DNA of 64,000 nt, taken from the NCBI GenBank assembly GCA_945881965.1, contig CAMCVS010000001.1, forward strand, positions 539,402 to 603,401, written 5' to 3'. Within the stretch, counting starts at the first letter, position 1; every line of letters begins with the position of its first letter. This stretch comes from Paracoccus haematequi (GTDB lineage Bacteria; Pseudomonadota; Alphaproteobacteria; Rhodobacterales; Rhodobacteraceae). The notes below the pieces were generated by a model. The model was not told the DNA's origin. It was given only the letters and a program-made list of their open reading frames with translations, and ran no database searches. Made by a program: the position numbers and the translations under genes. Positions 40,637 through 62,342 of the stretch are shown here, piece by piece.

Positions 40637-40688
40637 GTTCTCTCGCACCCACCACACCCTTGCCGCCATGCATCCGCCGCGATAGCGT

Positions 40689-40704
40689 CAACTGTCAACA
40701 GTTG
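40689..40704. promoter_or_regulatory. Candidate GntR operator, copy 1
   Basis: CAACTGT-CA-ACAGTTG, 7-bp perfect arms with a two-base spacer, 18 bp upstream of the first isochorismatase-fold gene. The inner 14-mer occurs as its exact reverse complement at 50630-50643. The GT-N2-AC core fits the general pattern of FCD-type GntR operators. Confidence 0.7.
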
Positions 40705-40721
40705 CACCCAAGGAGCCCGCG

Positions 40722-42714: not shown

Positions 42715-42733
42715 AACGCGGGGGCCCCACCGT

Positions 42734-42748
42734 CAACTGTCAACAATC
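42734..42748. promoter_or_regulatory. Candidate GntR operator, copy 2
   Basis: CAACTGTCAACAATC, preceded by CGT as in copy 1 (CGTCAACTGTCAACA shared exactly, 15 bases). The right arm is degenerate. It lies in the divergent gap between the first deacetylase-fold gene and the second isochorismatase-fold gene, 20 bp before the latter's ATG. Confidence 0.65.
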
Positions 42749-42768: not shown

Positions 42769-43455
42769 ATGAGGCCGTGGACCGGAATAATCACCGAGGA
42801 AGAAGAACGGCGCTATGATGCGGCGGGCTTTGGGCGGTCCGGCGGGGTGGGTGAACGGCCTGCCCTTCTGATCATCGACGTGCAATATCGCACGGTCGGC
42901 ACGGTGCGGCGGCCTTATTGGGAGGCGATCAAGGAATTTCCCACCTCGTGTGGCGAAGACGGCTGGCGCGCGGTGGATCATATCGCCCCGCTGTTGGCGG
43001 CGTTCCGCGCGCGCGGGTTTCCGGTGCTGTATCCGCATGTCGCGCCCAAAAATGCGGCGACGGATTCGGGTCGGCTGGCGCAAAAGGTGCCCGCCATCAT
43101 GGGCATCGCCGCGAACGGCTATGATTTCGTGGCGGAGGTGGCGCCCGTGCCCGGTGACGTGCTGCTGCCCAAAAAGCATCCGAGCGCCTTCTTTGGCACG
43201 CCTCTGGTCAGCCATCTGATCGATCTGCGGGTCGATACGCTCTATGTCACCGGCTGCACGACAAGCGGCTGTGTCAGGTCGTCGGTCAGCGATGCGTTTG
43301 CCTATAATTTCAAGGTGATCGTGCCGCATGAGGCGGTCTATGACCGCTCGCCCACGTCCCATGCCGCCAATCTGTTCGACATGAACGCGAAATATGCCGA
43401 CGTCGTCTCGACCGCAGACGCCTTGGCCATGCTGCCCACAGGAGAACCAAGATGA
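42769..43455 (+). CDS. Isochorismatase-fold cysteine amidohydrolase (2)
   Basis: 228 residues, closer to N-carbamoylsarcosine amidase types. The aspartate is in LLIIDVQYRTVG, the lysine in LLPKKHPSAFFGT, and the cysteine in YVTGCTTSGCVRSSVSDAF, with the cis-peptide-type motif before it. An AGGGA site precedes the ATG. The long frame reaching back to 41863 is antisense to the deacetylase gene. Its stop overlaps the start of the MmgE/PrpD gene, opening a four-gene operon. Confidence 0.9.
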   Translation: MRPWTGIITEEEERRYDAAGFGRSGGVGERPALLIIDVQYRTVGTVRRPYWEAIKEFPTSCGEDGWRAVDHIAPLLAAFRARGFPVLYPHVAPKNAATDSGRLAQKVPAIMGIAANGYDFVAEVAPVPGDVLLPKKHPSAFFGTPLVSHLIDLRVDTLYVTGCTTSGCVRSSVSDAFAYNFKVIVPHEAVYDRSPTSHAANLFDMNAKYADVVSTADALAMLPTGEPR

Positions 43456-44813
43456 GCGTAGAACAGGTCGCAGCAGGGCTGAAGCGCCTGACGGAATGGT
43501 CGGCAGCGCTGGAATGGGTCGATGTGCCGGGGCCGGTGCGGTTGCGCGCGGCCTTGGTGATGTCGGATGACATCGCCGCAATCGTGGCCGCGCGCGACGA
43601 GCCGGAACTGGCGGCGGCGCAGGCTGGCCTGATGCGGTCTGCCGGACGCGCCGAGGCCACGCTGTTCAACGCGCGCGGTGACCGGGCCGACCGCTATTCG
43701 GCAGCAACGGCCAATGGCTGTGCGGCGGATTGGTGCGAGTTGGACGGCGGTTATCGCCGGGTGATCTGTCATGCCGGGATCTATGCCCTGCCCGCCATTC
43801 TGGCCGAGGCCGAGGCGGACGGCCACAGCACCCAAGACGTGCTGCGCGCGCTAGTGATCGGATATGAAACGGCGGCCCGCGTGGCGCGGTGTTTCATATT
43901 CCCCAATCTGGTGCTGCACCCGCATGGCAGCCTTGCGGCTATCGGGGCCGCCGCAGGCACCGCTGCGATCCGCCGCCTGTCGGCCAGCGATGCGGCGGCA
44001 GCGATTTCATCGGCGGCCACGATGGTCTTGCCCGGCCCCTATACGCATCCCATCAACGGGTCGCTGGTGCGCAACGTCTGGCCCGGCGTGGCCGCATGGA
44101 CCGGGATGCGCGCCACTGACTGGGCCTTGGCGGGCATCCGTGGCCTGCCGTCGGCGCTCAACGATGTCTATGTCGATGCCTTTGGCGCTGTCGCGCATAC
44201 CAGCGAATTGACCGACGGTTTGGGCGAGGCGTTTGCGCTGAGCGATGGCTATCACAAGGTGTTCGCCTGCTGTCAGTATGGCCACGCCACCATCGAAGCC
44301 ACGCTGCGCCTGCGCGACCGGGCCGATTGGCGCGCGGTTACGGGAATCCATCTGGACACGCATTACAAGGCGCGCGTGATGGACAACACCGACCCGGACA
44401 CCACGATTGCGGGCAAATTCTCGATCCAGCATATCGCGGCGACGGCTGCTGTGCATGGCGACGGCGGTGCCGCAGCGTTTTCGGCGGCGGTGCTGAACAA
44501 GCCCGAGGTGGCCGCCCTGCGCCACAAGGTAACGATGTCCCCCTATATGCCCGAACCGGCATGGCCGAATGACCGCCCGTCACGGGTGACATGGACGCTG
44601 GCTGATGGCAGCACCTTGTCCGAAGAGGTGATGAGCGCGCGCGGCGGGCCTGACCTGCCGTTCAGCCCCGATGAAATCCGCACCAAGATCGCAGGCATCG
44701 TGTCTGCGCCCTATCCGGCCATGTTGCCGCTTTTGGACCGGATCCTGACATTGGATCAGGCCACCCTTGCGCGCCCTTGGGCCGATTGCGTGTCTGAAAT
44801 GGTGGCATCATGA
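43452..44813 (+). CDS. MmgE/PrpD family protein (1)
   Basis: 453 residues of the MmgE/PrpD fold, which includes 2-methylcitrate dehydratase, cis-aconitate decarboxylase and iminodisuccinate epimerase. Landmarks: the helical-domain stretch HAGIYALPAILAEAEADGHS, VIGYETAARVAR, HPHGSLAAIGAAAGTAAI and the catalytic-region YHKVFACCQYGHATIEATL. It overlaps both neighbours by four bases. It is one of three family members in the island and has a proton-abstracting or hydration role on a carboxylated substrate by analogy. Confidence 0.88.
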   Translation: MSVEQVAAGLKRLTEWSAALEWVDVPGPVRLRAALVMSDDIAAIVAARDEPELAAAQAGLMRSAGRAEATLFNARGDRADRYSAATANGCAADWCELDGGYRRVICHAGIYALPAILAEAEADGHSTQDVLRALVIGYETAARVARCFIFPNLVLHPHGSLAAIGAAAGTAAIRRLSASDAAAAISSAATMVLPGPYTHPINGSLVRNVWPGVAAWTGMRATDWALAGIRGLPSALNDVYVDAFGAVAHTSELTDGLGEAFALSDGYHKVFACCQYGHATIEATLRLRDRADWRAVTGIHLDTHYKARVMDNTDPDTTIAGKFSIQHIAATAAVHGDGGAAAFSAAVLNKPEVAALRHKVTMSPYMPEPAWPNDRPSRVTWTLADGSTLSEEVMSARGGPDLPFSPDEIRTKIAGIVSAPYPAMLPLLDRILTLDQATLARPWADCVSEMVAS

Positions 44814-46156
44814 GCGATGCAATTGATCTGCTGGTCGTTGGGGCCGGGGCTTGCGGGCTGGCGGGCGCGATTGCCGCGCATGACGCGGGGCTGAGCGTCG
44901 CCATCGTGGAAAAACGCGACCGACCGGGGGGCAATTCGGCGCTGTCCACCGGGTCGATCCCCGGCGCGGGCAGCCGGTATCAGGCGCAGGCAGGCATCGA
45001 GGACAGCCCCGAGCGCATGATCGCCGATCAACTGGCGGTCGCCGGACATCACGACGCCGATGACCTGACCGCCTTGATCGCCCATCACTGCGCGCCGCTG
45101 TGCGAATGGCTGATCGAGGATCTGGGCGCGCGGATGGAACTGATCACCGCCTATCGCCACATCGGCCATTCGGTCGAACGGCTGCACGCGCCCCGGTCCC
45201 GGCGCGGTGGCGATCTGGTCGATGATCTGCTGCGCATGGTGGCGGATCGCGGCATCCCGCTGGCACTGGGCAATCCGGTCGATGACTTGATCATCGGCGC
45301 GGATGGCGTGACGGGCGCGATGATCGCGGGCGAGGCGGTGGCCGCGCGCAAGGTGCTGCTTGCCACCAACGGCTTTGCCGCCGACCGGGCGCTGGTGGCG
45401 GAATACTGCCCCGAAATCGCCGGGGCCGATTATTATGGCGCACCGGGCAGCACTGGCGACGCGGTGCGCTGGGGCCGCAGCTTGGGCGCGGCGCTGGGAA
45501 ATATGGCGGCCTATCAGGGTTATGCCGCCGTCGCCTATCCGCAGGGGCAATTGCTGTCCTGGACCACGATCGAGAAGGGCGGCATCCTTGTGGGCCGCGA
45601 TGGTCGCCGCTTTGGCCCCGAGGATGCGGGCTATTCCGGGTTCACGCCAGCGGTGATGGCGCAGGGCGACATGGCCTGGGCCGTCTATGACACCCGCCTG
45701 CACGCCATCGCGATGGCCGAGGAAGAATACGCCGAGATGTCGGCGATGGGGGCCTTACGCTGGGCCGATACGCCCGAAGCGCTGGCCGAGGCGGTGGGGC
45801 TGGACCCGGCAGGGTTGGCGCAGGCGGTTACCGACTACAACGCCGCTGCTGCCGGTCTGCGGCCTGATCCGCTGGGGCGGCGCAACTTTGGTCTGGCTCC
45901 TCTGGTGCCGCCGCTGGCGATTGCGGCGGTCAAGCCGGGGCTGTTCCACACTCAGGGCGGGCTGTTGGTCGATGCCCATGCGCGGGTGCGCAGTGCCGCG
46001 GGCGGCGTGATCGGCAACCTGTTCGCCGGGGGTGGGGCCGCCGCAGGGATCAGCGGGCGCAGCGGCGCGGGCGGCTATGCGTCCGGCAACGGATTGATCA
46101 CGGCGCTGGTGCTGGGGCGACTTGCGGGCCTGCGCGCTGCGGCGGAACTGGCATGA
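44810..46156 (+). CDS. FAD-dependent oxidoreductase (fumarate-reductase/KSTD type)
   Basis: 448-residue flavoprotein of the succinate dehydrogenase/fumarate reductase flavoprotein family without a cytochrome domain. FAD motif LLVVGAGACGLAGAIAAHDAG, then EKRDRPGGNSALSTGSIPGAG, and the C-terminal NLFAGGGAAAGISGRSGAGGYASG. Relatives dehydrogenate or reduce the C-C bond next to a carboxyl or keto group (tricarballylate, 3-ketosteroids, urocanate). Four-base overlaps on both sides show tight coupling to the MmgE/PrpD genes. Confidence 0.88.
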   Translation: MSDAIDLLVVGAGACGLAGAIAAHDAGLSVAIVEKRDRPGGNSALSTGSIPGAGSRYQAQAGIEDSPERMIADQLAVAGHHDADDLTALIAHHCAPLCEWLIEDLGARMELITAYRHIGHSVERLHAPRSRRGGDLVDDLLRMVADRGIPLALGNPVDDLIIGADGVTGAMIAGEAVAARKVLLATNGFAADRALVAEYCPEIAGADYYGAPGSTGDAVRWGRSLGAALGNMAAYQGYAAVAYPQGQLLSWTTIEKGGILVGRDGRRFGPEDAGYSGFTPAVMAQGDMAWAVYDTRLHAIAMAEEEYAEMSAMGALRWADTPEALAEAVGLDPAGLAQAVTDYNAAAAGLRPDPLGRRNFGLAPLVPPLAIAAVKPGLFHTQGGLLVDAHARVRSAAGGVIGNLFAGGGAAAGISGRSGAGGYASGNGLITALVLGRLAGLRAAAELA

Positions 46157-47523
46157 TCCCCGCCGCGCGGGTCATCGCCGAGGCAGTGCAGGCGCTGCGG
46201 CATTCTGATCTGCCGCCGCAGGCGACGCAGGCCGCGCGGTTGCATTTTCTGGATGCCGTGGGCGTCGGCCTTGCCGCGTCGCGGGTGCCGCAGAACGTGG
46301 GCTGGGCTGAGTCAGTCGTATCGGTTGGCGGGTCGGGGACGGCCACCGTGCTGGGTCAGTCAACCGGGGCCGCGCCTGCAATGGCCGCGCTGTTGAACGG
46401 CGCGCGCATCCATGCGCTGGAATATGACGATACGCATATCGCATCCGTGGTGCATGGGTCGGCGGTTGCCGCCCCTGCGGCCTTGGCGGCGGCAGAAGCG
46501 GCGGGGGCCGATGGGGTCACGTTGCTCAAAGGCTACGTGCTGGCGTGGGAGGTGATGATCCGTCTTGGTCTGGCCGCCCCCGGCGCGATGCAGGCACGCG
46601 GGTTTCAGGTCACAGCCGTCGCGGGGGCCATCGGCGCAGCGGCGGCAGCGGCGCTGATCGGCGGGCTGGACACGGATCGCACGATGGCCGCTCTGGGGAT
46701 TGCCGGATCGCAGGCGTCGGGGTTGATGGAGTTTCTGGCCGAAGGGGCCAGCGTCAAGGCGCTGCATCCCGGCTGGGCGGCGCATACCGGGGTGTTGGCC
46801 GTCGCATTGGCGCAAGGCGGCATGACCGGACCCGCGTCGATCCTTGAAGGCCGGTTTGGCGTCATGGCGGGTTTTGCCGGTCAGACGGACGCGGCGGCGG
46901 GGTTGGCGGCGCAGATGGCCACGCTGGGGTCGGTCTGGCACCTGTCCGATGCGGCGTTCAAGGCCTATCCCTGCTGCCACTATATTCACCCCTTCCTGGA
47001 GGCGCTGGAAACCCTGATCGCGGGCGGCCTGTCGGCGGATGATCTGGCCAGCGCCACTGCCTTTGTGCCGCCCCCCGAAGCGCCGCTGATCTGCGAACCC
47101 TGGGCGCGGCGGCAGGCCCCGGCCAGCGGCTATGACGCGAAATGGGCCTTGGGGTATTGCCTCGCCGCGCGGCTGGTGAAAGGCCCGCTGGGCGTCGCGG
47201 ATTTCACCCGCGATCCCGATCCTGCGGCCATCGCGTTGGCCCGCAGGATCGACTGGCAGCCGATGGCGGACCACGGGTTTCCGGCGCGGTTTGCCGCCCG
47301 GTTGCAGGTCGTGACCCGTGATGGGGGCATATTGCTGGCCGAGGTGGCCAATGTGCGCGGCGCGCCCGACCGCCCCATCACCGCCGCCGAGGTGCAGGCC
47401 AAGTTCCGCGCCAACGCGGCGCAGGCGCTGTCCGCGCCGTCCGTGGCAGACGCCGAAACCGCGATCCTGACGCTGGACAGCGCGGGGTCACTGACCGCGT
47501 TGCGCCGCGCCTTGGCAGGGTGA
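46153..47523 (+). CDS. MmgE/PrpD family protein (2)
   Basis: 456 residues, same family as the gene two positions upstream. Motifs: RLHFLDAVGVGLAASRVPQ, HALEYDDTHIASVVHGSAVAAPAALA, GASVKALHPGWAAHTGVLA and AFKAYPCCHYIHPFLEAL. The EYDDTH region matches the aconitase-like active-site loop of PrpD-type enzymes. It is the last gene of the operon and converges on dctM with an 18-bp gap. Confidence 0.88.
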   Translation: MIPAARVIAEAVQALRHSDLPPQATQAARLHFLDAVGVGLAASRVPQNVGWAESVVSVGGSGTATVLGQSTGAAPAMAALLNGARIHALEYDDTHIASVVHGSAVAAPAALAAAEAAGADGVTLLKGYVLAWEVMIRLGLAAPGAMQARGFQVTAVAGAIGAAAAAALIGGLDTDRTMAALGIAGSQASGLMEFLAEGASVKALHPGWAAHTGVLAVALAQGGMTGPASILEGRFGVMAGFAGQTDAAAGLAAQMATLGSVWHLSDAAFKAYPCCHYIHPFLEALETLIAGGLSADDLASATAFVPPPEAPLICEPWARRQAPASGYDAKWALGYCLAARLVKGPLGVADFTRDPDPAAIALARRIDWQPMADHGFPARFAARLQVVTRDGGILLAEVANVRGAPDRPITAAEVQAKFRANAAQALSAPSVADAETAILTLDSAGSLTALRRALAG

Positions 47524-47541: not shown

Positions 47542-48858
47542 TCAGGTTCCCATCATCAGGTTGGGCAGGAAAAGGGTGATCTCGGGGATCATGATCAGGA
47601 TGATCAGCGTGCACATGTCCATCAGGACAAACGGCATCACCCCGGCAAACGCCTCGTTCAGCGTGATCGGCACCGGGGACGCACTGCGCACCACATAGAC
47701 GTTCAGGCCCACCGGCGGCGTGATCAGCGAAATCTCGGCCAGCTTGATGGAAATCACACCCAGCCAGATCGGATCATAGCCGACGCCGACAAGGATCGGG
47801 AACATCACCGGCAGCGTCATCACCATGATAGCGATGGCGTCAAGGAACATGCCCAAGAACAGGAACAGCCCGACGAAGGCCAGCAGGTAATAATAGCGCG
47901 GCAATTCCAGCGCCAGCAGGCCATTCGAAATCTCTGTCACCAGCCCGGTATAGGTCAGGAACCGCGCAAACAGGATACCGCCGATCACGATGATGAAGAT
48001 GGTCGAGGTGGTCAGGCCGGCCTCCTTGAAGGTGTCGGTCAACATGCGGCGGTTGATGCCCCCCTTGAAGAACACGATCATGAACGCGCCAAAGGCTCCG
48101 ACGGCCCCGGCATAGGTGGGCACGAAGAACCCCAGGTAAATGCCGCCAATCACCAGCGTGAACAGGAACCCGATGCCCCAGACGCCTTTCAGCGAGGCAA
48201 ATTTCTCGCGCAGCGATATCTTTATTGTCTGCCGTGGGGCCAGTTCCGGGCGCAGCGTCACCAGAACATAGATGCCGATCAGGAACACCAGCGCCGAAAA
48301 CAGGCCGGGGATCAGGCCCGCGATCAGCAGGCGCGCCACCGATTGTTCGGTGATGATGGCATAGACCACCATCAGGATCGACGGCGGGATAAGCGAGGCC
48401 AATGTGCCTGATGCGGCGATGCACCCCGCACTCAGCCGCTTGTCATAACCGAAACGGGTCATTTCCGGCATGGCCAGTTTGGTGAACACGGCAGCATTGA
48501 CCAAGGTCGATCCGCTGGCCGCGCCAAAGGCGGCTGATGCCATGGTGGTGGCCATCGCCAACCCGCCCCGGAACCCGCCCAGCCAGGCATAGGCGGCGCG
48601 ATACAAATCCGTCGTCAACCCGGCCTGGGTCGCCAGCGACCCCATCAGGATGAACAGCGGGATAACCGCCAGCGTGAAGGAATTGGTGGTCCCAAACGGG
48701 ATCGTCGCCATCTGCGCCAATGCGGCATCCGGCCCGATGGCCAGATACATGCCGATGAACCCGCCAAGGCCCAGCGCCACACCGATATGGACGCCGACCG
48801 TCAGCATGATCGCCAACAACACAACAACAATGGCACCGGCGATTGCGGGATCGAGCAT
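47542..48858 (-). CDS. TRAP transporter large permease (DctM)
   Basis: 438-residue membrane subunit of a tripartite ATP-independent periplasmic transporter, with about 12 helices. Typical blocks: FGTTNSFTLAVIPLFILMGSLA, FGAASGSTLVNAAVF, ASGTLASLIPPSILMVVYAI and ITPPVGLNVYVVRS. It uses an ion gradient to import the ligand caught by DctP. It lies 17 bp downstream of dctQ in the dctP-dctQ-dctM operon and is the importer of the catabolic island. Confidence 0.95.
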   Translation of the reverse strand: MLDPAIAGAIVVVLLAIMLTVGVHIGVALGLGGFIGMYLAIGPDAALAQMATIPFGTTNSFTLAVIPLFILMGSLATQAGLTTDLYRAAYAWLGGFRGGLAMATTMASAAFGAASGSTLVNAAVFTKLAMPEMTRFGYDKRLSAGCIAASGTLASLIPPSILMVVYAIITEQSVARLLIAGLIPGLFSALVFLIGIYVLVTLRPELAPRQTIKISLREKFASLKGVWGIGFLFTLVIGGIYLGFFVPTYAGAVGAFGAFMIVFFKGGINRRMLTDTFKEAGLTTSTIFIIVIGGILFARFLTYTGLVTEISNGLLALELPRYYYLLAFVGLFLFLGMFLDAIAIMVMTLPVMFPILVGVGYDPIWLGVISIKLAEISLITPPVGLNVYVVRSASPVPITLNEAFAGVMPFVLMDMCTLIILIMIPEITLFLPNLMMGT

Positions 48859-48875
48859 GTTCAGAGTCCTGACGT

Positions 48876-49418
48876 TCAGTTGCGCAATTCGGGCGCGGTG
48901 ATTTCCGGGCCGGACACGGGGGGCGGGGCACCGGACTTGACCCGGCCGATGTCGATGATCAGGTCCAGCACCAGCCGCACGATCATCAGCCCGACCCCAA
49001 AGGCCAGGAAAATGCGCGCGGGCAGCAGCGGAAAGCGAACCGCGCCAAAGGTGGCCTCGCCGATGCGATAGGAAAACTGCGCCTCGACGACCGCCTGCCA
49101 GAACATCAGGCCGTAGAACGCTATGGCGGCGATATCCGTCACCACATCCATCGCGGCCTGCGTATGCGGACCACGGCTGTAATACAGCAGTTCAACCCGG
49201 ATATGCGCGCGCCGCACCTGCGTATAGGCCAGCGCGCCAAACACGATCAGCACCATCGTGCTTTCAGTGATCTCGCGTGGCCCCGCGACCGGCATCGACA
49301 GCACCTGCGTGCCCAGAATGTCGGCCACGCCCAAAAACATCGACATCAACATGCCGATCCCGCCCAGCAAAAGCACGGCAATCGCAACACGCTCGGTCAA
49401 CCGGGACATGGTTTCCAC
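48876..49418 (-). CDS. TRAP transporter small permease (DctQ)
   Basis: 180-residue, four-helix small membrane subunit. Helix 1 is AVLLLGGIGMLMSMFLGVADIL; the conserved PGxREITE-like stretch is VAGPREITESTMVLIVFGALAYTQVRRAHIRVELLY. It partners DctM encoded 17 bp downstream. Confidence 0.93.
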   Translation of the reverse strand: METMSRLTERVAIAVLLLGGIGMLMSMFLGVADILGTQVLSMPVAGPREITESTMVLIVFGALAYTQVRRAHIRVELLYYSRGPHTQAAMDVVTDIAAIAFYGLMFWQAVVEAQFSYRIGEATFGAVRFPLLPARIFLAFGVGLMIVRLVLDLIIDIGRVKSGAPPPVSGPEITAPELRN

Positions 49419-49491
49419 AGGGCGCTCCTATCTGAACGACAAGAAAAAGACGGGCCACGGATGCCGCAGCCCGTCAAGATGATCTGATGGA

Positions 49492-50514
49492 TTACTCGGC
49501 GGCCTTGGCGCGCAGATACTTGGCAACCTCGGCGGCCTCGGCACCCTTGCCCTTGGCTTCCATGCCGACGACCCATTCCTGCAACACGTCGGGGGCCATC
49601 GCGCGCCACTTGTCCAGCTCGGCCTGCGAAATCGGCTTGAACTTGCCGCCCAGCGCTTCGATCTTGGCTTGGGCGTCGTTTTCGGCGGTGTCGATGGCGG
49701 CCATATAGGCCTCACCGGCCTTACGGGCCTCTTCGATCATGATGGCCTGGATATCGGCAGGCAGACGCGCCCAGGTCCGTTCGCCCACGACGATGATGTG
49801 GCCTGCGATGGCGAACACCGGGCCGCAGTTGTTGGGGGCGACTTCGTAGAACTTGTTCGCCAGCACGTTGCCGCGGTTGATCGTCGAATAGTCGATGGCG
49901 TCGCGCTGGAGCGCCTCATAGACTTCGGGGACCGGAACCGTCACCGGAACCGCACCAATCCCGGTCATCAGCTTGGGGATATCCGCGCCAAAGCTGCGCA
50001 GTTTCTTGCCCTTCAGCGCATCGACCGTGTCGCAATTCGGGTCTTTGCCGGTGAAATAATAATCACCCAGCGGCTGGTGGAACATGTATTTCACGCCATA
50101 GGTCGCCAGTTCTTCGGACAGCACGGGCAGGTCTTCCACCGCGTCGAACGAGATTTCCAGCGCCTGCTTGGGCGACTTGAACACGAAGGGGATCTGGAAT
50201 GTGCGCCAGAACAGCAACTGGTCGGCGAAATAGCCGGGCACCAGCGCGGCCATGTCCACAGCCCCGCGACCTGCCAATTGCAGCAGTTCCGGACCCGCGC
50301 CCAGACCGCCCGAATAGGTGATCTCGATCGACACCCGGCCATTGGTGCGCGCGGCCACAGCGGCGGCAAAGTCACGCTCGACCTGAAGGAACGGCGTATC
50401 GGCCAGGTAATGCGCATAGCGCAGCTTGAATTCCTGCGCGGTGACGGCAGAGGCCGCCCCCATTACGCCCAGCGCGGTCACGGCGCCCAGCATGTAGCTG
50501 ATGTTCATTTTCAT
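49492..50514 (-). CDS. TRAP transporter solute-binding protein (DctP)
   Basis: 340-residue periplasmic binding protein with a Sec signal peptide (LGAVTALGVMGAASAVTA, cleaved near 27). The DctP-type landmarks are FKLRYAHYLADTPFLQVERDFAAAV, ELLQLAGRGAVDMAALVPGYF, GKKLRSFGADIPKLMTGIGAVPVTVPVPEVYEALQ and DYSTINRGNVLANKFYEVA; family members bind a carboxylate with a conserved arginine, consistent with an acid substrate. The start at 50514 has a GGGAG site. It diverges from the nitroreductase fusion with operator copy 3 between. Confidence 0.93.
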   Translation of the reverse strand: MKMNISYMLGAVTALGVMGAASAVTAQEFKLRYAHYLADTPFLQVERDFAAAVAARTNGRVSIEITYSGGLGAGPELLQLAGRGAVDMAALVPGYFADQLLFWRTFQIPFVFKSPKQALEISFDAVEDLPVLSEELATYGVKYMFHQPLGDYYFTGKDPNCDTVDALKGKKLRSFGADIPKLMTGIGAVPVTVPVPEVYEALQRDAIDYSTINRGNVLANKFYEVAPNNCGPVFAIAGHIIVVGERTWARLPADIQAIMIEEARKAGEAYMAAIDTAENDAQAKIEALGGKFKPISQAELDKWRAMAPDVLQEWVVGMEAKGKGAEAAEVAKYLRAKAAE

Positions 50515-50626: not shown

Positions 50627-50643
50627 GTCAACTGTTGACAGTT
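50627..50643. promoter_or_regulatory. Candidate GntR operator, copy 3
   Basis: GTCAACTGTTGACAGTT. It contains AACTGTTGACAGTT, the exact reverse complement of the 14-mer in copy 1, and the palindrome GTCAAC-T-GTTGAC. It sits in the 216-bp divergent gap between dctP (minus) and the nitroreductase fusion (plus). Confidence 0.72.
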
Positions 50644-50730: not shown

Positions 50731-52107
50731 ATGACCATAGGAGCACGCGCCGACCTGTCGCGCAATGAAAGCCGCGCGGATGCCATGCCCGATTGGCGCG
50801 CGATGCTGGATGTGATGGCAACGCGCCACTCGACGCGGGCGTTTGACGGGTCGGTGATAGATGACGCAACGCTGGCGGACATCGTGCGCGACGGCACCGA
50901 AGCGCCATCCTCGTGCAATCAGCAGAACTGGCATTTCATCGTGGTCACGGATGGTGACGCCAAGCGGCTGGCGCATGACATTTCCGGCGGCAACGCGCAT
51001 TTTTCCGACTGTTCAGCGCTGATTTACCTGTGTTTCCAGAAGGGCTGGACGCATGGCAATTTCTCGGTGGTGCAATCCGTGGCGGCGGCGGCCTATCACA
51101 TGATGATCTCGGCGCATCTGCGCGGGTTCCAGTCGATCTGGAATGCAGGCATTGGCGATCAGGTGCGGTTGCGGCATATGCTGGCCTTGCCGCAGACATT
51201 CGACGTGATCGGTGCGCTGGCCATCGGGCGTGCGCGGCCCGATGCGCCTGCGATGAAGGCGCCGCGCCGCCCGACCCAAGAGGTGTATTCCTTTGGCCAG
51301 TTCGCGCGCCCTGCCAACGCGGTCTATCCGGCGAAACCTGCGGCCAGCTATCCGTTTTTCCGCATCCGCAATGACAATAACCCTTGGGCAGAATGGAACC
51401 CGGCGCGCTGGTCGCTGGCGCAACTGGCCGATTTCCGGGGCTATTCGGTCTGGGCGAAATCGCCCCTGTCCGGCGTCTATGTTTCGCGCCGCCAGGGGGC
51501 TGCGACGCAGGCGGAACTGGCGCTGTTGCCTGATCTGCCCGCAGGCGCAGCGGTGGCCGAATTGCTGCCCTGGGGCGGCACCTATACCGTAGAATTGCGC
51601 CGCCGCCTTGGACCGGGGGTGACGCTGCATGTGGACGATCTGTCTGACAACAACCTGTCCTTTGTCCGCGAACGGCTGCGCCAAGAGGGGCTGGCATCCG
51701 ACCTGACCCGTTTTGCCCGCATCGACGCGGGCCGCCTGCCACATGACAACGCCAGCCTTGACGCCGTGATCGCGCCGCAGGTTCTTGAACATCTGCCCGA
51801 TCCGCAGGCGATGCTGGACGAGATTGCGCGCGTGCTGAAACCCGGGGGATTGCTGGTGGTCAGCGCGCGTAACCTGTGGTCGGCTTATGGCTGGGTCTGG
51901 GCGACGCGCGAAAGCCGCGCGCCGGTGCCCAATCAGGGCCCGTTCCGTCCGATCCCGGCCCCGCGCCTGCGCGGCTGGCTGGCGGCGCGGTTCACGATCG
52001 AGGCGGACACCGGCATTGGCCGGGGCGCGTCCGGTGACGCCACGCCGTCCACCGGTCCCCACAAGACCCTGTCACGCCTCTATGCGGCGCGGTGCCGTCT
52101 TGGCTAG
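50731..52107 (+). CDS. Nitroreductase-methyltransferase fusion protein
   Basis: 458 residues in two parts. Residues about 20-185 are an FMN nitroreductase-family domain (ATRHSTRAFDG, EAPSSCNQQNWHFIVVTDGD, FQSIWNAGIGDQ). Residues about 255-440 resemble a class I SAM methyltransferase (LHVDDLSDNNLSFVRERL, DAVIAPQVLEHLPDPQAMLDEIARVLKPGGLLVVSARN). The glycine motif I of the methyltransferase is altered (ELLPWGGTYTVEL), so SAM binding needs testing. A linker of about 65 residues joins the two. I do not know this domain pairing as a described enzyme. Operator copy 3 lies upstream. Confidence 0.85.
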   Translation: MTIGARADLSRNESRADAMPDWRAMLDVMATRHSTRAFDGSVIDDATLADIVRDGTEAPSSCNQQNWHFIVVTDGDAKRLAHDISGGNAHFSDCSALIYLCFQKGWTHGNFSVVQSVAAAAYHMMISAHLRGFQSIWNAGIGDQVRLRHMLALPQTFDVIGALAIGRARPDAPAMKAPRRPTQEVYSFGQFARPANAVYPAKPAASYPFFRIRNDNNPWAEWNPARWSLAQLADFRGYSVWAKSPLSGVYVSRRQGAATQAELALLPDLPAGAAVAELLPWGGTYTVELRRRLGPGVTLHVDDLSDNNLSFVRERLRQEGLASDLTRFARIDAGRLPHDNASLDAVIAPQVLEHLPDPQAMLDEIARVLKPGGLLVVSARNLWSAYGWVWATRESRAPVPNQGPFRPIPAPRLRGWLAARFTIEADTGIGRGASGDATPSTGPHKTLSRLYAARCRLG

Positions 52108-52114
52108 CCGCGCT

Positions 52115-53497
52115 CTAGGCCAGTTTCCGCGCGACATAGCGCCCGGTGCCCACGGCGTCGGGTTGCAATCTGCCGTCGCGCAGCACGATCCGGCCGCCAG
52201 CGACGGTGTGCACCACGCGCACCCGCATCTCGTGGCCCTCATAGATCGAACAGGCGGCATCCGTCGCCAGATGCTCTTTGCCCACGGTCCAGCGCGCGTT
52301 CAGATCGATCACCGCCAGATCGGCATCCGCGCCGGGACGGATCGCGCCTTTGGTGGCCAGACCCATGGCCCGTGCGGGCGCGCGGCTGACCATGTCGATC
52401 AGCCGGGGCAGCGGGATACCGCGCTGCACATGGCCTTCGGTCAACAGCGCGGGCAGAAAGGTGTCCAGACCGGGGAACCCCGGCTGCGCCTTCCAGATGC
52501 CGCCGTCTTTGGACGTGGCGGGGCGGTGGATGTGATCCGTGGCAATGGTATCGACTTGGCCGTCGCGGATGCCCTGCCACAGCGCCTCGCGGTCGGCGGG
52601 GTCGCGCAGCGGCGGGTTGACCTTGCCTTGGGTGCCGATGGGGCTGGTCACGTCATGGGTCAGGTAATGGATGCAGGTTTCGATGCTGACCTCTGCGCCC
52701 GCCTGCCGTTGCCGCACCGCCTCGGTCAGCGCCGCGCCAGAAGATGTATGCACCGCATGCACCCGCGTTCCGGTGGCGCGCGACAGCATCAGGATGCGTT
52801 GCAGCGCCTCGGCCTCGACCAGCGGCGGGCGGGTCGCGTTCCATGTTGCCAGACCGCCCAGGCCATCGGGATCAGTGGCCAGCATACGGTCGCGCAACAC
52901 CCATGCGATCTCGATATTCTCGGGGTGCGGACACAGCACACCACCATGGGCCGCGATCACCTCCAGCAGGCGATACATGAACCCGTCATCGGTGCCGGGC
53001 AGACCCAGCCGCGCGCCTTCGTTGCCGCGAATGTTCATGAACAGCTTGGCACTTGGCGCGCCGCGCGCCATCAGGTCGGGCAGTTCGGCCAACTGCGCCT
53101 CGGTCGCGATCACGAAATGAAAGCCGAAATCGACGCGCGCACCCGCCCTTGTGACGGCGATCAGATCGTCAAAGGCGGGGCCATGGGGGTCGGCGCTCAT
53201 GACATAGGACAGGATGCAGGTCACCCCGCCCGTGGCCGCAGCGCCGGTTTCACTGGCGGCATCACCGGGCACACGGGGGCGGGCAATGTCGGACCCGTGG
53301 CCCAGATGGATATGGGCGTCGATGGCACCGGGCACGACGGTCAGGCCGGTGCAGTCGATCACCTGCGCCGCAGACCCGCCCGCGCCGGGGGCGGTGATGG
53401 CCGCGATGCGCCCGCCCGTCACCAGCACATCGGCCTGCGCCAGCCCGTCGGGCAACAGCACCGTGCCATTGGAAAACCGGGTATCTGCCTGATCCAT
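52115..53497 (-). CDS. Cyclic amidohydrolase (dihydropyrimidinase/hydantoinase type)
   Basis: 460-residue metal-dependent cyclic amidase. Ligands: H62 and H64 in DAHIHLGHG, the carbamylated lysine K151 in APSAKLFMNIRG, H191 in LCPHPEN, histidines in RVHAVHTSSG, and D321 in IATDHIHRP. The fold acts on dihydropyrimidines, hydantoins, dihydroorotate or allantoin; the substrate is not settled. It ends eight bases after the convergent nitroreductase fusion. Its start is only 32 bp from the divergent deacetylase-fold gene. The start at 53497 has AAGGAA upstream. Confidence 0.92.
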   Translation of the reverse strand: MDQADTRFSNGTVLLPDGLAQADVLVTGGRIAAITAPGAGGSAAQVIDCTGLTVVPGAIDAHIHLGHGSDIARPRVPGDAASETGAAATGGVTCILSYVMSADPHGPAFDDLIAVTRAGARVDFGFHFVIATEAQLAELPDLMARGAPSAKLFMNIRGNEGARLGLPGTDDGFMYRLLEVIAAHGGVLCPHPENIEIAWVLRDRMLATDPDGLGGLATWNATRPPLVEAEALQRILMLSRATGTRVHAVHTSSGAALTEAVRQRQAGAEVSIETCIHYLTHDVTSPIGTQGKVNPPLRDPADREALWQGIRDGQVDTIATDHIHRPATSKDGGIWKAQPGFPGLDTFLPALLTEGHVQRGIPLPRLIDMVSRAPARAMGLATKGAIRPGADADLAVIDLNARWTVGKEHLATDAACSIYEGHEMRVRVVHTVAGGRIVLRDGRLQPDAVGTGRYVARKLA

Positions 53498-53529
53498 CGC
53501 CTGTTCCTTGCGTTGCGGGGCGCGCGCGC

Positions 53530-54417
53530 ATGATCCGCGACCGCATCCCCTATTCCCCGATCCACGCCCGCCCGCGTCTGGTCTGGCCCGGCGGGGCGCG
53601 GGTGGCCGTCTGGGTGGTGCCGAATGTCGAACACTATGAATACTTGCCAGCCCATGTCGCACATCGCAACCCCTGGCCCCGCATGCCGCATCCCGATGTG
53701 CTGGGCTATGGCTTGCGCGATTACGGCAACCGGGTCGGGCTGTGGCGCATGGCCGATCTGATGGACGCTTATGCCATCCCGGCCACGTTGTCGCTGAACA
53801 TGGCGGTGTGGGACCATTACCCCGAGATCCTCGAGGCCGGCATGACACGCGGCTGGGACGTGATGGCGCATGGGATATACAACACACGCTATCATCTGGG
53901 CATGTCCGAGGACGCGGAACGCGCCGAGATCGCTGCCGCGCTGGACATCTATCGCCGCCACACCGGACAGATGCTGCGGGGGTGGTTCGCGCCTGCCGCC
54001 ACGTTCACCTGGGCCAGCAGCGATCTGGTCGCCGAAGCGGGCATCACCTATTCCGGCGACTGGTATCACGATGACCAGCCCTGCGATATCACCGTGCGGC
54101 AGGGGCGGCTGATTTCCGTGCCCTATCAGATGGATATCAATGACGCGATGGTGTGGCGGCACCATGTCGAGGCGGATGATTTCGCACAGATGGCCATCGA
54201 CCACTTCGATACCCTGTGGCGCGAAGGCGCGGATCAGGGCCGCGTGGTCTGTATCGCGCTGCACCCGTTCCTGATGGGTCAGCCACAGCGCATCCGCGCG
54301 CTGGAACGGGTGTTTGCCCATATGCGGGCGCATGATGGGGTCTGGTTCGCCACGGGCGCGCAAATTGCCGACTGGTATCTTGCGCAGCGCCCGCAGGCCC
54401 CGGGGGGCCAGCCATGA
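53530..54417 (+). CDS. PuuE-like polysaccharide-deacetylase-fold hydrolase (2)
   Basis: 295 residues of the PuuE group. Landmarks: LVWPGGARVAVWVVPNVEHYEYL, RDYGNRVGLWRMADLMDAY, MAHGIYNTRYHLGMSEDAE, GWFAPAATFTWASSDLVAEAG, YHDDQPCDITV and VCIALHPFLMGQPQ. No strong ribosome binding site is visible before the ATG, which follows a GCGCGCGC run. It overlaps the next deacetylase-fold gene by four bases and diverges from the cyclic amidohydrolase. Confidence 0.87.
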   Translation: MIRDRIPYSPIHARPRLVWPGGARVAVWVVPNVEHYEYLPAHVAHRNPWPRMPHPDVLGYGLRDYGNRVGLWRMADLMDAYAIPATLSLNMAVWDHYPEILEAGMTRGWDVMAHGIYNTRYHLGMSEDAERAEIAAALDIYRRHTGQMLRGWFAPAATFTWASSDLVAEAGITYSGDWYHDDQPCDITVRQGRLISVPYQMDINDAMVWRHHVEADDFAQMAIDHFDTLWREGADQGRVVCIALHPFLMGQPQRIRALERVFAHMRAHDGVWFATGAQIADWYLAQRPQAPGGQP

Positions 54418-55322
54418 CGCAGCGCAACCCCGGCATGGATCACGCGCTTTATCCGTTCTCGATGCTGCCCGCGCGGCCTGCGCTGACGTGGCCCGATGGT
54501 GCGCGGCTGGCGCTGGGGCTGGTGGTGCATTTCGATTATTGGGAGATTGACCCGCCCGACGACGCCGTCACCGACCCGCGGTTCCGCGATACCTTTGGCG
54601 CGTTCCGGCCCGACCAGCGCAGCTATGCCTGGCGCGAATATGGCAACCGGATCGGCATCTTCCGCCTGATGGAGGTGCTGGACCGCCATGGCATGACGGC
54701 CACACTGGCCGCAGGAACCGCCGCGATTGCGCGCGCACCACAGGTGATCGAGGCGGCGCTGTCGCGCGGCTGGGAAGTGGCGGCGCATGGCGATTACGCG
54801 ACGCGGATGATCTCGTCCGCGATGTCTGAGGTGGCTGAGGCAGAGCTGATCGACCATTCTGTCCAAGTGATCACTGCCGCCACCGGGCAGCGCCCGACGG
54901 GATGGATCGGGCAGGATTACGGCCAAAGCACCCGCACCCCCGCCCTTTTGGCGCAGGCCGGATTCCGGTATCTGTCCGACTGGCCCAATGATGATCAGCC
55001 CTATCTGATGACGACCACGCCGCCGATCCTGTCGATCCCGGTGCAGGCGGAACTGGATGACGTGCAACTGCTGTGGCATCGCCGGGTGCTGACCCCGCGC
55101 TATCCCGATCTGGTCATGGCGGCGGCCGATGTGCTGCTGTCCGAAGGCGGGCGGTCACTGGTGCTGGGACTGCACCCGTGGCTGTTCGGGATGCCGCACC
55201 GCATCCACTATCTGGATGCAACCCTTGCGCGTCTGGCGCAGGCCGCAGGGATATGGCAAGCCCCGCTCGCGCGTGTCGCGGACCATGTTTTCAGCGCATT
55301 TGACAAAGGACGCCCGGCATGA
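54414..55322 (+). CDS. PuuE-like polysaccharide-deacetylase-fold hydrolase (3)
   Basis: 302 residues, third PuuE-like protein in the island. Landmarks: LTWPDGARLALGLVVHFDYWEID, REYGNRIGIFRLMEVLDRHG, AAHGDYATRMISSAMSE, GWIGQDYGQSTRTPALLAQAG, WPNDDQPYLMTT and VLGLHPWLFGMP. It differs from its upstream partner across the substrate-facing segments, so a different ring or a heteromeric complex is possible. ATGA overlaps at both ends. Confidence 0.87.
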   Translation: MTQRNPGMDHALYPFSMLPARPALTWPDGARLALGLVVHFDYWEIDPPDDAVTDPRFRDTFGAFRPDQRSYAWREYGNRIGIFRLMEVLDRHGMTATLAAGTAAIARAPQVIEAALSRGWEVAAHGDYATRMISSAMSEVAEAELIDHSVQVITAATGQRPTGWIGQDYGQSTRTPALLAQAGFRYLSDWPNDDQPYLMTTTPPILSIPVQAELDDVQLLWHRRVLTPRYPDLVMAAADVLLSEGGRSLVLGLHPWLFGMPHRIHYLDATLARLAQAAGIWQAPLARVADHVFSAFDKGRPA

Positions 55323-56020
55323 GCATCGACGATTTTGCCCGCCCCCTGGTCGCCACCAACCTTGTCAGCCTTGCGCTGGAAAGGCTGGAACGCGCCATTC
55401 TGGAGGGTGATCTGAAACCCGGCCAGCGCCTGTCGGAAACCGAACTGGCGCGGCGGTTCGGGATCAGCCGTGGGCCGCTGCGCGAGGCGATCGGGCAACT
55501 TGAAGGCCGCAAGCTTGTGGAACGCATCACCAATCAGGGCGCGCGCGTGGTCTGGCTGTCGCCTGCAGAGCTGATCGACCTCTTGGTGATCCGCGAAAGC
55601 CTTGAAGGCATGGCCTGCCGTCTGGCCACGCAGCGGATGACGGATGACGATCTGGACCAGTTGGATACCATGCTGGAACACCACGCCGCTGACAGCACGC
55701 TTGTCGCGGGGCGGGGGTATTTCCAAGGCGCGGGCGACAAGGATTTTCACGGTCGCATCGCGCGCGCCAGCGGCAATCCGCGCCTGATCACCATGCTGGA
55801 GGGCGAATTGTATTCGCTGATCCGGCTCTATCGCCACCGGCTGTCGATGCGCCCCGGTCGGCCACAAGACGCACTGGACGAGCACCGCGTGATCCTTGCC
55901 GCCATGCGCACCCGCGACCCGGACCAGGCCGAAGCCGCGATGCGCGCGCATATCCGCAACAGCAGTTCCGCCGTGGCCGAAGTGTTGGCCACCGAAGAGG
56001 CCGCCGCGAATGTTGACTAA
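55319..56020 (+). CDS. GntR-family regulator with FCD domain, likely regulator of the island
   Basis: 233 residues. The winged helix-turn-helix (about 20-85) shows LERAILEGDLKPGQRLSETELARRFGISRGPLREAI. The all-helical FCD effector domain follows (LVIRESLEGMACRLA, KDFHGRIARASGNPRL, LDEHRVILAAMRTRD, MRAHIRNSSS), including histidines typical of metal/carboxylate binding. It is encoded inside a deacetylase-fold/lyase operon by a four-base overlap. Its family and location make it the best candidate to bind the repeated ACTGT-CA-ACAGT sites (inference). Confidence 0.92.
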   Translation: MSIDDFARPLVATNLVSLALERLERAILEGDLKPGQRLSETELARRFGISRGPLREAIGQLEGRKLVERITNQGARVVWLSPAELIDLLVIRESLEGMACRLATQRMTDDDLDQLDTMLEHHAADSTLVAGRGYFQGAGDKDFHGRIARASGNPRLITMLEGELYSLIRLYRHRLSMRPGRPQDALDEHRVILAAMRTRDPDQAEAAMRAHIRNSSSAVAEVLATEEAAANVD

Positions 56021-56053
56021 AACGCGCACCGGGGACCACCACAGGAGTTGGAC

Positions 56054-56953
56054 ATGACGGATTTGGCATTGCGCCAGGATACGGTCGCCTTGCGCCGCGT
56101 CGCCCTGCGGGCGGCGATGGGGCGGCGCGCGGCCCTGCTGGCACCGGGGGCGGCCAATGCGCTGACGGCCCGCATCATCGAGGATTGCGGGTTCGACATC
56201 TGCTACGTCACCGGCGCGGGTATCGCCAACACGCTGCTGGGGGTGCCGGATGTCGGGCTGGTCACCATGTCGGAACTGGCCGGGACGGTCGAGGCGATTG
56301 CCGAAATCTCGTCGCTGCCGCTGGTGGTCGATATCGACACCGGGTTCGGCAACGCGGTGAACACCTATCGCACGGTGCGGGTGCTGGAACGCGCAGGTGC
56401 CGCGGCGTTACAGTTAGAAGATCAGGTTTTTCCCAAGAAATGCGGGCATTTTTCGGGCAAGGCGGTGATCCCGGTCGATGAAATGACCGCGAAAATCCGC
56501 GCCGCCGTCGATGCGCGCAACGATGCGAACCTGATGATCATCGCGCGCACCGATGCGGCGGCGGTGGACGGGTTTCAGGCGGCATTGGACCGGGCGGCGG
56601 AATTTGTGGCCGCAGGCGCGGACATGACCTTTGTCGAGGCACCCCGGTCTGATGCCGAACTGGCGATGATCCCCGCCCGTCTGGCGGTGCCGCAAATCGC
56701 CAATATGGTGGTGGGTGGCAAGACACCGTTGCTGCCGCAGGCGCGGTTGGCAGAAATGGGATTTGCGCTGGTGCTCTATGCCAACGCACCGTTGCAGGCC
56801 GCGATGCGGGCGATGCACGATGTGTTGTCGGCGCTGCACCGCGATGGTGATCTGGACGCGGTCGCAGACCGGCTGGCGGGGTTCGAGGAACGCCAGCGGC
56901 TGGTGGCGAAACACGCCTATGACGTGCTGGAGGATCGTTACCGCACGTCGTGA
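56054..56953 (+). CDS. Isocitrate lyase/PEP mutase superfamily lyase
   Basis: 299 residues of the ICL/PEPM superfamily. It has the metal aspartates in LVVDIDTGFG and LEDQ, and the lyase loop K128-K-C-G-H132 in FPKKCGHFSGK, which marks C-C lyases (2-methylisocitrate, 2,3-dimethylmalate, oxaloacetate type) rather than mutases. It would split a hydroxylated di- or tricarboxylate, as the final step after a PrpD-type dehydratase. AGGAG precedes the ATG at 56054. It overlaps the convergent MmgE/PrpD gene by 16 bases. Confidence 0.9.
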   Translation: MTDLALRQDTVALRRVALRAAMGRRAALLAPGAANALTARIIEDCGFDICYVTGAGIANTLLGVPDVGLVTMSELAGTVEAIAEISSLPLVVDIDTGFGNAVNTYRTVRVLERAGAAALQLEDQVFPKKCGHFSGKAVIPVDEMTAKIRAAVDARNDANLMIIARTDAAAVDGFQAALDRAAEFVAAGADMTFVEAPRSDAELAMIPARLAVPQIANMVVGGKTPLLPQARLAEMGFALVLYANAPLQAAMRAMHDVLSALHRDGDLDAVADRLAGFEERQRLVAKHAYDVLEDRYRTS

Positions 56954-58287
56954 CCCGCTGCCGCCATCTGGTCCAGCAGGGTCGCCGCCGTTGGCGCATC
57001 CGCCAATGCCAGTGTCCTGTCCCAGATCGCTGCCGCCGCGTCGTCGCGCCAGACACGGGTTGCCAGCGACAGGTATTTGCCCCGGATTTCCGCCGCCGGA
57101 TAGGGGTCGGCCCAATCGCCCCGGTTCGTCCGGGTTTCAGCCGTGGCGCTGTGCCCATCGTCAAACACCAGCGTCACCCGCGCCGGACGGTTGTGCGGCA
57201 AGGCCGCCGACATGGCCGCATCCTGGCGCAGCAACACCTTGGCGGCTAGCGCGCGGATCGCCGGATTGCCAAGGTTCGGCGCGGTGAAACTGGCCACCCC
57301 TGTTGACCCGTTGACCAGCGCCGTCGCCACCGCAAAGGGCACCGAAAACTTTGCCGCCAACACGTTGCGCGGCGCGGGGTCGTCCAGTTCGACGGCCAGC
57401 GCATAGGTATCGACCTCGATCCGCGCAATTCGGGCCAGATCGGGGGCACCATCGCGGGCCACGATCATGTCCAGCGCATCCAGTGTGGCATGGTTATAGC
57501 GGCAGCAGGAATGCATCTTGAAATAGTTGCGCGAGACCTCCCACCGCGTGCCAAGACCGTCGGTCATTGCCACTGTATCGAAACTGTCGGACACCACGCG
57601 CCCGAACACCTGGCCCACGCCGTCGCGATCGCCTTCAAAGCCTGCGGTCAGCAGATCATGCGTGGTCAGGCCCATCTGGCCGCTGATCCCGGCATAGGCG
57701 TTACGCACCGTGCCGCCTTCCAGCATGGTGCGGCGCGAGGTGGCGAGGCAGAAACTGGCCGCGATATTCATCGCTTGCCGCATCCCCGCCGCATCCCGCC
57801 CTGCCAGCCGCGCCACCGCAACCGCCGCCGCGATAGTGCCCCAGGTGCCATGCGGGTGCATCGCCGGGCGCAGCCGCGTGGCGATGCCGACGCGCGCGCC
57901 GACCTCGTATCCAATCGCGATGGCGGCCAGCAGATCGCGGCCCGACACCGGCAACCCGTCGGCAAAGGCCAGCGCGGCGGGCACGGTGTGCATCCCCGGA
58001 TGGCCTTTGCAGAACTGGTTGCCCTCGTCCATTTCCAGCACTGTCCCGGCGGTGCCGTTCAAGAACGCGGCGCGGCCCTTGTCGCTACGCCGCGCCGTGC
58101 CGATGACCAGCGCGCCCATATCACCCGCCCCTTGGCGCAGCGCCTGCATGTCGGGTTCCGCCGCCCCGCCCGCGATCGCGCCGATGCAATCCGCAAGGAT
58201 CAGCGCCGTGCGCGCGATCACCGCATCGGAGATATCGTCGCTGCGGGTATCCGCCGCAAAGGCGGCCACGTGGTCCAGATAATCCAT
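56938..58287 (-). CDS. MmgE/PrpD family protein (3)
   Basis: 449 residues, third MmgE/PrpD protein. Landmarks: TALILADCIGAIAGGAAEPDMQA, VLEMDEGNQFCKGHPGMHTVPAALAFADG, GYEVGARVGIATRLRPAMHPHGTWGTIAAA and FKMHSCCRYNHATLDALDM. It differs from the other two and has EMDEGNQF where PrpD types have EYDDTH. It diverges from the Asp/Glu-racemase-like gene with operator copy 4 in the 96-bp gap. Confidence 0.88.
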   Translation of the reverse strand: MDYLDHVAAFAADTRSDDISDAVIARTALILADCIGAIAGGAAEPDMQALRQGAGDMGALVIGTARRSDKGRAAFLNGTAGTVLEMDEGNQFCKGHPGMHTVPAALAFADGLPVSGRDLLAAIAIGYEVGARVGIATRLRPAMHPHGTWGTIAAAVAVARLAGRDAAGMRQAMNIAASFCLATSRRTMLEGGTVRNAYAGISGQMGLTTHDLLTAGFEGDRDGVGQVFGRVVSDSFDTVAMTDGLGTRWEVSRNYFKMHSCCRYNHATLDALDMIVARDGAPDLARIARIEVDTYALAVELDDPAPRNVLAAKFSVPFAVATALVNGSTGVASFTAPNLGNPAIRALAAKVLLRQDAAMSAALPHNRPARVTLVFDDGHSATAETRTNRGDWADPYPAAEIRGKYLSLATRVWRDDAAAAIWDRTLALADAPTAATLLDQMAAAGHDVR

Positions 58288-58344
58288 CGCGCTGTTCCCC
58301 CTGTGCTATCGCTTGGCTTGCATCCGTCCCGCAGGCTGGGCATC

Positions 58345-58356
58345 CTGTCAACAGTC
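58345..58356. promoter_or_regulatory. Candidate GntR operator, copy 4
   Basis: CTGTCAACAGTC, sharing CTGTCAACAGT (11 bases) with copy 1, in the 96-bp divergent gap between MmgE/PrpD (3) and the racemase-like gene, 27 bp before the latter's ATG. Confidence 0.62.
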
Positions 58357-58383
58357 TACACCCGCTGCAAAAGGTCCGCCCGC

Positions 58384-62297: not shown

Positions 62298-62342
62298 GGG
62301 TCTGCGCGCCCGCCCTTCTGCATCCGCATGCTGCATCCAGAT

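Follow-up and report, generated by a model that had tools for sequence, protein, structure and literature searches.

The question raised by this locus is whether a single polypeptide that joins a flavin-type domain to a methyltransferase-like domain is a genuine enzyme, and what it would do among its neighbours. The window, i.e., the whole analysed stretch of 64,000 nucleotides from Paracoccus haematequi, had been described in a first-pass annotation as carrying an uninterrupted 458-residue frame. This was borne out, as 50731-52107 on the + strand was open throughout, and both domains scored above their Pfam cut-offs. The two motifs named there, LLPWGGTYT and LKPGGLLVVSARN, were found in the protein where the annotation had placed them. 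The features of the gene were as follows, with the basis of each in brackets.

50731..52107, + strand: nitroreductase / methyltransferase-like fusion protein, 458 aa (open frame, Pfam, 36 homologues, AlphaFold2)
50794..51300, + strand: FMN nitroreductase-fold domain, residues ~22-190 (Pfam, alignment, structural matches)
51301..51498, + strand: conserved connecting region, residues ~191-256, with consensus NPFAEW, DFRGYSVWAKSP and VSRR (alignment)
51499..52104, + strand: class I methyltransferase-like domain, residues ~257-458 (Pfam, fold matches)
51559..51582, + strand: altered motif I, residues 277-284, E-L-L-P-W-G-G-T (family mostly E-x-M-P-W-G-G-T)
51637..51639, + strand: acid ending strand 2, D303 in the window protein (alignment and model)
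51868..51873, + strand: invariant R380-N381 after strand 5, together with S384, G387 and Q402-G403-P404 (alignment)

The Pfam model Nitroreductase (PF00881) matched in two N-terminal stretches, the best at residues 30-79, with 8.9e-17 and 62.2 bits against a cut-off of 23.5, and Methyltransf_11 (PF08241) matched residues 283-377 with 6e-16 and 59.3 bits against a cut-off of 21.2. Among the best 25 of 32 NCBIfam models, none came near its cut-off. BluB (TIGR02476) reached 36.2 bits (cut-off 150), UbiE 35.3 (378), CmoM 23.5 (366) and arsenite methyltransferase 28.7 (263). The ATG at 50731 followed a ribosome site that looked plausible by eye; many homologues aligned only from about residue 20, so the first residues of the fusion are uncertain. 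The literature searches, which covered main texts and mostly open papers, gave no description of the fusion or of the locus. The fusion is a new combination of known domains, and the earlier remark that the architecture was not a described enzyme was in agreement with the libraries and literature searched.

The homologue scan covered a collection of 84,980 species; a protein was picked up only if it contained one of six peptides without mismatch, so that distant members were missed. It yielded 38 related loci, 36 of which matched most of the fusion protein at 53-81% identity. The record titles of these 36 were alphaproteobacterial except for three given only as Proteobacteria and one, on a 3.3 kb contig, given as Pseudomonadales; the genera are ones we take to belong to Alphaproteobacteria. 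By record titles, the fusion is conserved across several lineages of this class. According to our own ORF calling, a single frame ran through both halves in 35 of the 36 homologues, one of the 35 ending at a contig edge, and the sole broken frame was that of L056, from a metagenome assembly. The 36 aligned sequences (window included, L056 left out) formed 31 groups at 85% identity, with a mean pairwise identity of 59%. Alignment A1, used below, holds 35 sequences and leaves out L047 (cut by the contig end) and L056 (broken frame).

A frameshift and homologues encoded as separate genes were the two findings that had been named as speaking against the fusion, and neither was obtained. Since the whole fusion was conserved in 36 homologues, a chance frame or a local sequencing error is ruled out. 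Against two genes joined by frameshift or misassembly stand the 36 homologues from other assemblies and seven genomes, which possibly overlap the homologue loci and showed no stop within the match; the homologues refute an origin from an artefact or from split genes, and its probability is negligible. Furthermore, searches with each half gave no split pair in a sample of 398 phylum genomes, in which rarer split forms may be missed. The C-terminal profile found only the own genome at 1e-15, and the N-terminal profile at 1e-20 found the own genome and G464 (1.2e-21, a 173-residue frame). Long N-terminal extensions in L034 (946 aa) and L039 (1184 aa) were taken as antisense open frames through TRAP transporter genes and set aside; as read from the layouts of both loci, the TRAP binding-protein and small-subunit genes drop out. 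The Pseudomonadales-labelled contig, L047, is probably mis-binned: its fusion copy was 94% identical to that of L040 (Rhodobacterales), and its FAD, MmgE and fusion genes stood in the same order.

When genomes were searched by profile, 2 of 385 from the class and 7 of 394 from the family carried the fusion, the own genome counted in both; it is therefore an accessory gene, rare in the sampled genomes. None of 100 relatives besides the own genome has a full-length copy, because the best match there was only 8.6e-14. No plasmid record among 72,556 carried it at 80% coverage, and no match was obtained in viral contigs. Between the window and L021, dN was 0.069, 0.146 and 0.145 in the nitroreductase, connecting and methyltransferase-like parts, and dS was 0.997, 1.056 and 1.068, respectively. 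By these dN/dS values, both halves and the connecting part are maintained by purifying selection.

The nitroreductase half kept S34, R36, APSSCN, GGN-HF...FQKGWTH, LRG and WN-G-G in the 35 sequences of A1. S34, R36, N63 and Q65 were present in all 35, and R32 in at least 90%. In nitroreductase relatives, the Arg-x-Ser-x-Arg and Asn-x-Gln segments contact FMN. The AlphaFold2 model of the whole fusion had a pLDDT of 87.8 and a pTM of 0.84, and many solved nitroreductases matched it with Z of about 19-20, mostly over residues 22-190. Mean column identity in A1 was 0.78 for the connecting stretch of 66 residues, 0.77 for the nitroreductase half and 0.65 for the methyltransferase-like half.

In the methyltransferase-like half, motif I was E/D-x-M/L-P-W-G-G-T across the family, with exceptions at the proline in 2 of 35 sequences and at the first of these glycines in 1 of 35. 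The family form E-x-M/L-P-W-G-G-T aligned to the E/D-x-G-x-G-x-G loop of the class I methyltransferases 3mgg, MitM and 3bus (RebM). The first two loop glycines were replaced by Met/Leu and by Trp (Trp281) in every aligned member, while the third, G283, was kept in 35 of 35. Accordingly, the altered motif I pointed out in the first reading proved to be a family trait. The acid of strand 1 (position 277) was also kept (E in 32, D in 3), as was the acid ending strand 2 (position 303; E in 33, D in 2, the window protein having D), where the model placed a strand at 298-303. The latter is the usual place of SAM-ribose binding in class I methyltransferases; the two pocket acids normally hold SAM, and the last motif I glycine normally serves it. 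Because two SAM-type acids and the last glycine are kept, the altered motif, judged from the sequence, need not amount to a dead SAM pocket. Moreover, R380, N381, S384, G387, Q402, G403 and P404 were invariant in A1.

Structure prediction, which had been proposed as a check of the SAM pocket, was run on the C-terminal half with the connecting stretch and gave a complete class I methyltransferase fold as predicted (AlphaFold2, pLDDT 85.9, pTM 0.87). Among the nearest solved structures were CmoM (8joz; Z 19.1, rmsd 3.1 over 211 residues), SpnF (18.2) and TM1293 (18.2). A shared fold alone shows no function, and we call the domain methyltransferase-like because its motif I lacks the E/D-x-G-x-G-x-G pattern.

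The genes around the fusion in the window, with group labels and basis in brackets, were as follows.

42769..43455, + strand: isochorismatase-family amidase, N-carbamoylsarcosine amidase-like (F9; 5.9e-30 to 26st, homologue Pfam, start by eye)
43452..44813, + strand: MmgE/PrpD protein (F5; Pfam, recurrence)
44810..46156, + strand: FAD flavoprotein, flavocytochrome c/TcuA-like, below the cut-offs of those models (F6; Pfam, NCBIfam)
46153..47523, + strand: MmgE/PrpD protein (F10; nearest solved chains IRG1, a cis-aconitate decarboxylase, and IDS epimerase)
47542..50514, - strand: divergent TRAP transporter operon (F1 and F7 by position and recurrence; F4, DctP binding protein, by Pfam)
50627..50639, no strand: palindrome GTCAACTGTTGAC, putative operator in the gap that separates the fusion gene from the divergent TRAP operon (window scan, cross-locus conservation)
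52115..53518, - strand: hydantoinase/allantoinase-like cyclic amidohydrolase, below the cut-offs of those models (F2; Pfam, NCBIfam, recurrence)
53530..54417, + strand: PuuE-like polysaccharide-deacetylase-family hydrolase, cyclic imidase candidate (F8; Pfam, NCBIfam)
54414..55322, + strand: second PuuE-like hydrolase (F8; Pfam, NCBIfam, recurrence)
55319..56020, + strand: GntR/FCD regulator, candidate reader of the palindrome (F11; Pfam, recurrence)
56048..56953, + strand: PrpB / petal-death-protein-like lyase with KKCGH (F3; Pfam, NCBIfam)
56938..58287, - strand: further MmgE/PrpD protein (F5 group; Pfam, recurrence)

Neighbours were counted over 37 copies (the window and 36 loci) with our own ORF calling and grouping, short contigs being uncorrected; greedy ORF choice and single-linkage grouping miss genes and can join unlike ones, and the window's first PuuE-like gene was lost to an overlapping frame. 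On this basis, the hydantoinase/allantoinase-like gene recurred in 28 of the 37, the TRAP subunits in 28, 25 and 26, the PrpB-like gene in 27, the MmgE/PrpD genes in 26 and 22, the FAD flavoprotein in 25, PuuE-like genes in 24 (often two), the F9 amidase in 24 and the GntR/FCD gene in 20. AtuA with DUF4387, a carbon-nitrogen hydrolase, Asp/Glu/hydantoin racemases, and asparaginase or amidase genes were rarer. The solved DctP relatives matched the TRAP binding protein at 1.8e-18 or worse, and no ligand was deduced from them. The place of TRAP was taken by other transporter groups in two Microvirga loci and in L042, and one such subunit looked, by eye, like a branched-chain-type ABC permease. 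In L030 and L045, the fusion stood mostly with other neighbours, which counts against the pathway reading.

Several further observations concern the composition of these loci. AtuA was called in nine loci and DUF4387 in seven, L024, L037, L046 and L055 among them. The two Microvirga loci have AtuA/DUF4387, and in the part of these loci that was retrieved, neither an MmgE/PrpD nor an FAD gene was called; AtuA/DUF4387 may supply an equivalent step there. In the window, a gene at 59145-61632 was read as TcuB-like and one at 61629-62399 as FAD_binding_2, TcuA-like by position, with a GntR-group gene alongside; the pair occurred in four other loci, including L045, where it lies near the fusion. In addition, 58333-59148 encodes an Asp/Glu/hydantoin racemase-family protein with a GSTTM segment where racemases of this family have a cysteine. 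By eye it resembles group F16, called in five other loci and not in the window.

Among seven genomes with the fusion, which possibly overlap the homologue loci, six had the hydantoinase-like gene at a limit of 1e-60, with all hits better than 1e-150. In four it adjoined the fusion, whereas the distance was about 2 kb in G1078 and about 107 kb in G926; G990 had no hydantoinase match at 1e-60. At 1e-110, the own genome was the only one of 149 from the family to contain the gene. The co-occurrence of the two genes is suggestive only, as the 149-genome sample was unmatched to the fusion carriers. The PuuE-like gene was present in 7 of 7 fusion genomes at 1e-40, some copies being distant or only 34-41% identical. 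Among the assignable groups, the reduced locus of G990 kept TRAP, one PuuE-like gene, the fusion and two amidases.

The gene had been placed under a shared operator, and the perfect palindrome at 50627-50639, picked in the present analysis rather than from the earlier list of operators, was tested as such. Within the window alone the signal was weak: five sites had at most two mismatches, and 4 of 100 shuffles reached five. Across loci, the signal was strong: in the 350 bases before the fusion, 20 of 37 loci contained a perfect copy of GTCAACNGTTGAC, and 23 did so when a single mismatch was allowed, compared with 0 and 2 of 7400 single-base-shuffled controls, respectively; the 37 loci are related and hence not 37 independent cases. 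In several loci, additional copies stood ahead of the start of F9 or F5 and ahead of PrpB-like or AtuA genes. The conserved locus and the conserved upstream palindrome thus support the earlier statements that the gene is under a shared operator and belongs to the pathway. The GntR/FCD protein (55319..56020) is a candidate for binding the palindrome. Weaker copies with two mismatches were seen at 40687-40706, 42732-42744 and 58347-58359, i.e., one some 25 bases ahead of where F9 starts, the others at 40.7 kb and 58.3 kb. Alone they were little above chance, and they may widen the regulon.

What was observed is one conserved polypeptide, a conserved locus and a conserved palindrome, with both folds intact by prediction. 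Our preferred reading, held tentatively and at somewhat below an even chance, is that the fusion is an enzyme of two domains dedicated to one pathway, encoded in a co-regulated locus for the uptake and breakdown of a carboxylated cyclic imide or ureide; the neighbouring hydrolases are compatible with either type of ring. Going by their gene families, the neighbours line up as a coherent series of steps. The imide or ureide, with its carboxylate groups, would enter by TRAP-type uptake. The N-terminal domain would bind FMN and perform a two-electron step on a ring C-C bond, either reduction or dehydrogenation of the cyclodipeptide-oxidase type. The C-terminal domain would hold SAM in the pocket with the rebuilt motif I and methylate the same intermediate, and the fusion would keep this reactive intermediate on a single protein. 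The ring would then be opened by the PuuE-like and hydantoinase-like hydrolases and deamidated by F9 or another amidase, and the resulting diacid would be dehydrogenated and hydrated by the FAD protein and MmgE/PrpD, and split last by the PrpB-like lyase. The fusion would most likely perform the ring redox step because, in the annotated groups, only this protein and the FAD protein recur as oxidoreductases. Both dehydrogenation and reduction are within the reach of nitroreductase domains (PflD, PMC12636437). Tetrapyrrole-derived maleimides were considered as a substrate only as an idea, to which the searches gave no support.

The retention of the fusion in the reduced G990 locus is consistent with a role in the main pathway. 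On the other side stand the missing hydantoinase match in G990, the 14 of 37 loci in which the upstream palindrome had two or more mismatches, the loss of two of three motif I glycines in every aligned member with a bulky Trp in the loop, and the lower conservation of the methyltransferase half (0.65) compared with the rest (0.77 and 0.78). In addition, catabolic pathways rarely spend SAM. For the C-terminal domain, the kept acids favour SAM; the Trp in the loop, and what SAM would cost a catabolic pathway, argue against an ordinary methylation. It is quite possible that enzyme and pathway are as proposed and that the C-terminal domain does not methylate, instead holding SAM, another ligand or the substrate for the flavin site, or catalysing otherwise. 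Trp281, the replaced loop glycines and the invariant R380-N381, S384 and Q402-G403-P404 outside motif I would suit such a role, and SpnF, a [4+2] cyclase of methyltransferase fold, was among the nearest folds. VIA-align 2 also superposed several NfrA/NfsA-type nitroreductases on residues ~23-404 of the whole model, although this range states only where the aligned residues start and stop; in the model, the C-terminal domain may therefore end close to the flavin domain. A SAM-type site is favoured instead by the acids at 277 and 303 and by G283, which none of the 35 sequences has lost. That the fusion is a new type of enzyme, in which the flavin site and a SAM-type site with the rebuilt Trp motif I act in sequence on one ring intermediate, in an undescribed bacterial route for a cyclic imide or ureide acid with catabolic use of SAM or of another ligand of the methyltransferase pocket, is rather unlikely.

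A place outside the main pathway, with the fusion as a mere bystander or as a detoxifier that, for example, removes a toxic side-product, is improbable. Trans-aconitate methyltransferase has such a clean-up function in other bacteria, and methylation would suit clean-up better than carbon gain; L030 and L045 also carry the fusion without most of the neighbours. The palindrome before the fusion in 23 of 37 loci at up to one mismatch and the retention in G990 weigh against this. Even less probable is a small-molecule biosynthesis route, with the fusion as cyclodipeptide oxidase plus methyltransferase and the hydrolases recycling the product. Solved cyclodipeptide oxidases do lie near the flavin domain (9exv, Z 20.3; 8uc3, Z 19.6), but these values are tied with many plain nitroreductases, the annotated recurring groups contained no synthetase or synthase (some groups being unannotated), and a catabolic role is suggested by the genes for the uptake transporter, the PrpB-like lyase and MmgE/PrpD.

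Under the preferred reading of a pathway-specific enzyme, the fusion apparently marks a compact locus for the breakdown of a cyclic nitrogen compound, the identity of which was not found in print in the searched literature. If so, it gives access to a catabolic route that has not been described, and to the way in which a methyltransferase fold works when its SAM loop departs from the standard. The conserved palindrome and the regulator gene of the locus make it feasible to look for the substrate directly, as the inducer.

Compared with known systems, the fusion shares with the nitroreductase superfamily (3ge5 PG0310, NfrA/NfsA, the enone reductase CLA-ER) the fold, R-x-S-x-R and APS-x-x-N-x-Q-x-W, at 14-26% identity over the aligned parts of the structural matches. 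It differs by its own invariant block, GGN-HF...FQKGWTH, and by the C-terminal methyltransferase-like domain. The cyclodipeptide oxidases 9exv and AlbAB (8uc3), whose entry titles give activity on cyclic dipeptides, are near the nitroreductase domain in fold and not above plain nitroreductases. Cyclodipeptide oxidases have a separate small partner subunit and form filaments, and are not known to carry a fused methyltransferase domain. CmoM (8joz), TM1293 (1vlm), MitM, RebM and the cyclase SpnF (4pne) resemble the C-terminus in the whole fold (Z 17-19) and in the acid ending strand 2; they possess no flavin domain and are 18-24% identical to it, and in comparison with 3mgg, MitM and RebM, the fusion has lost two of the three motif I glycines. 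The likeness of the PuuE-type neighbours (F8) to cyclic imidases (HxnM, the P. putida imidase) and allantoinase PuuE, known from sequence, concerns the neighbours and not the fusion; HxnM, a PuuE relative, is described as acting as cyclic imidase in nicotinate breakdown by Aspergillus (PMC9304392). Among nitroreductase-domain fusions, a peroxiredoxin-nitroreductase fusion has been solved (4eo3, Z 19.0), with a partner domain different from that of the present fusion. PflD, an MNIO-nitroreductase fusion in RiPP biosynthesis, is alike in that a nitroreductase domain is fused to a second catalytic domain; both domains are reported to act on one substrate, which the nitroreductase domain dehydrogenates, whereas its partner is an MNIO and not a methyltransferase fold (PMC12636437).
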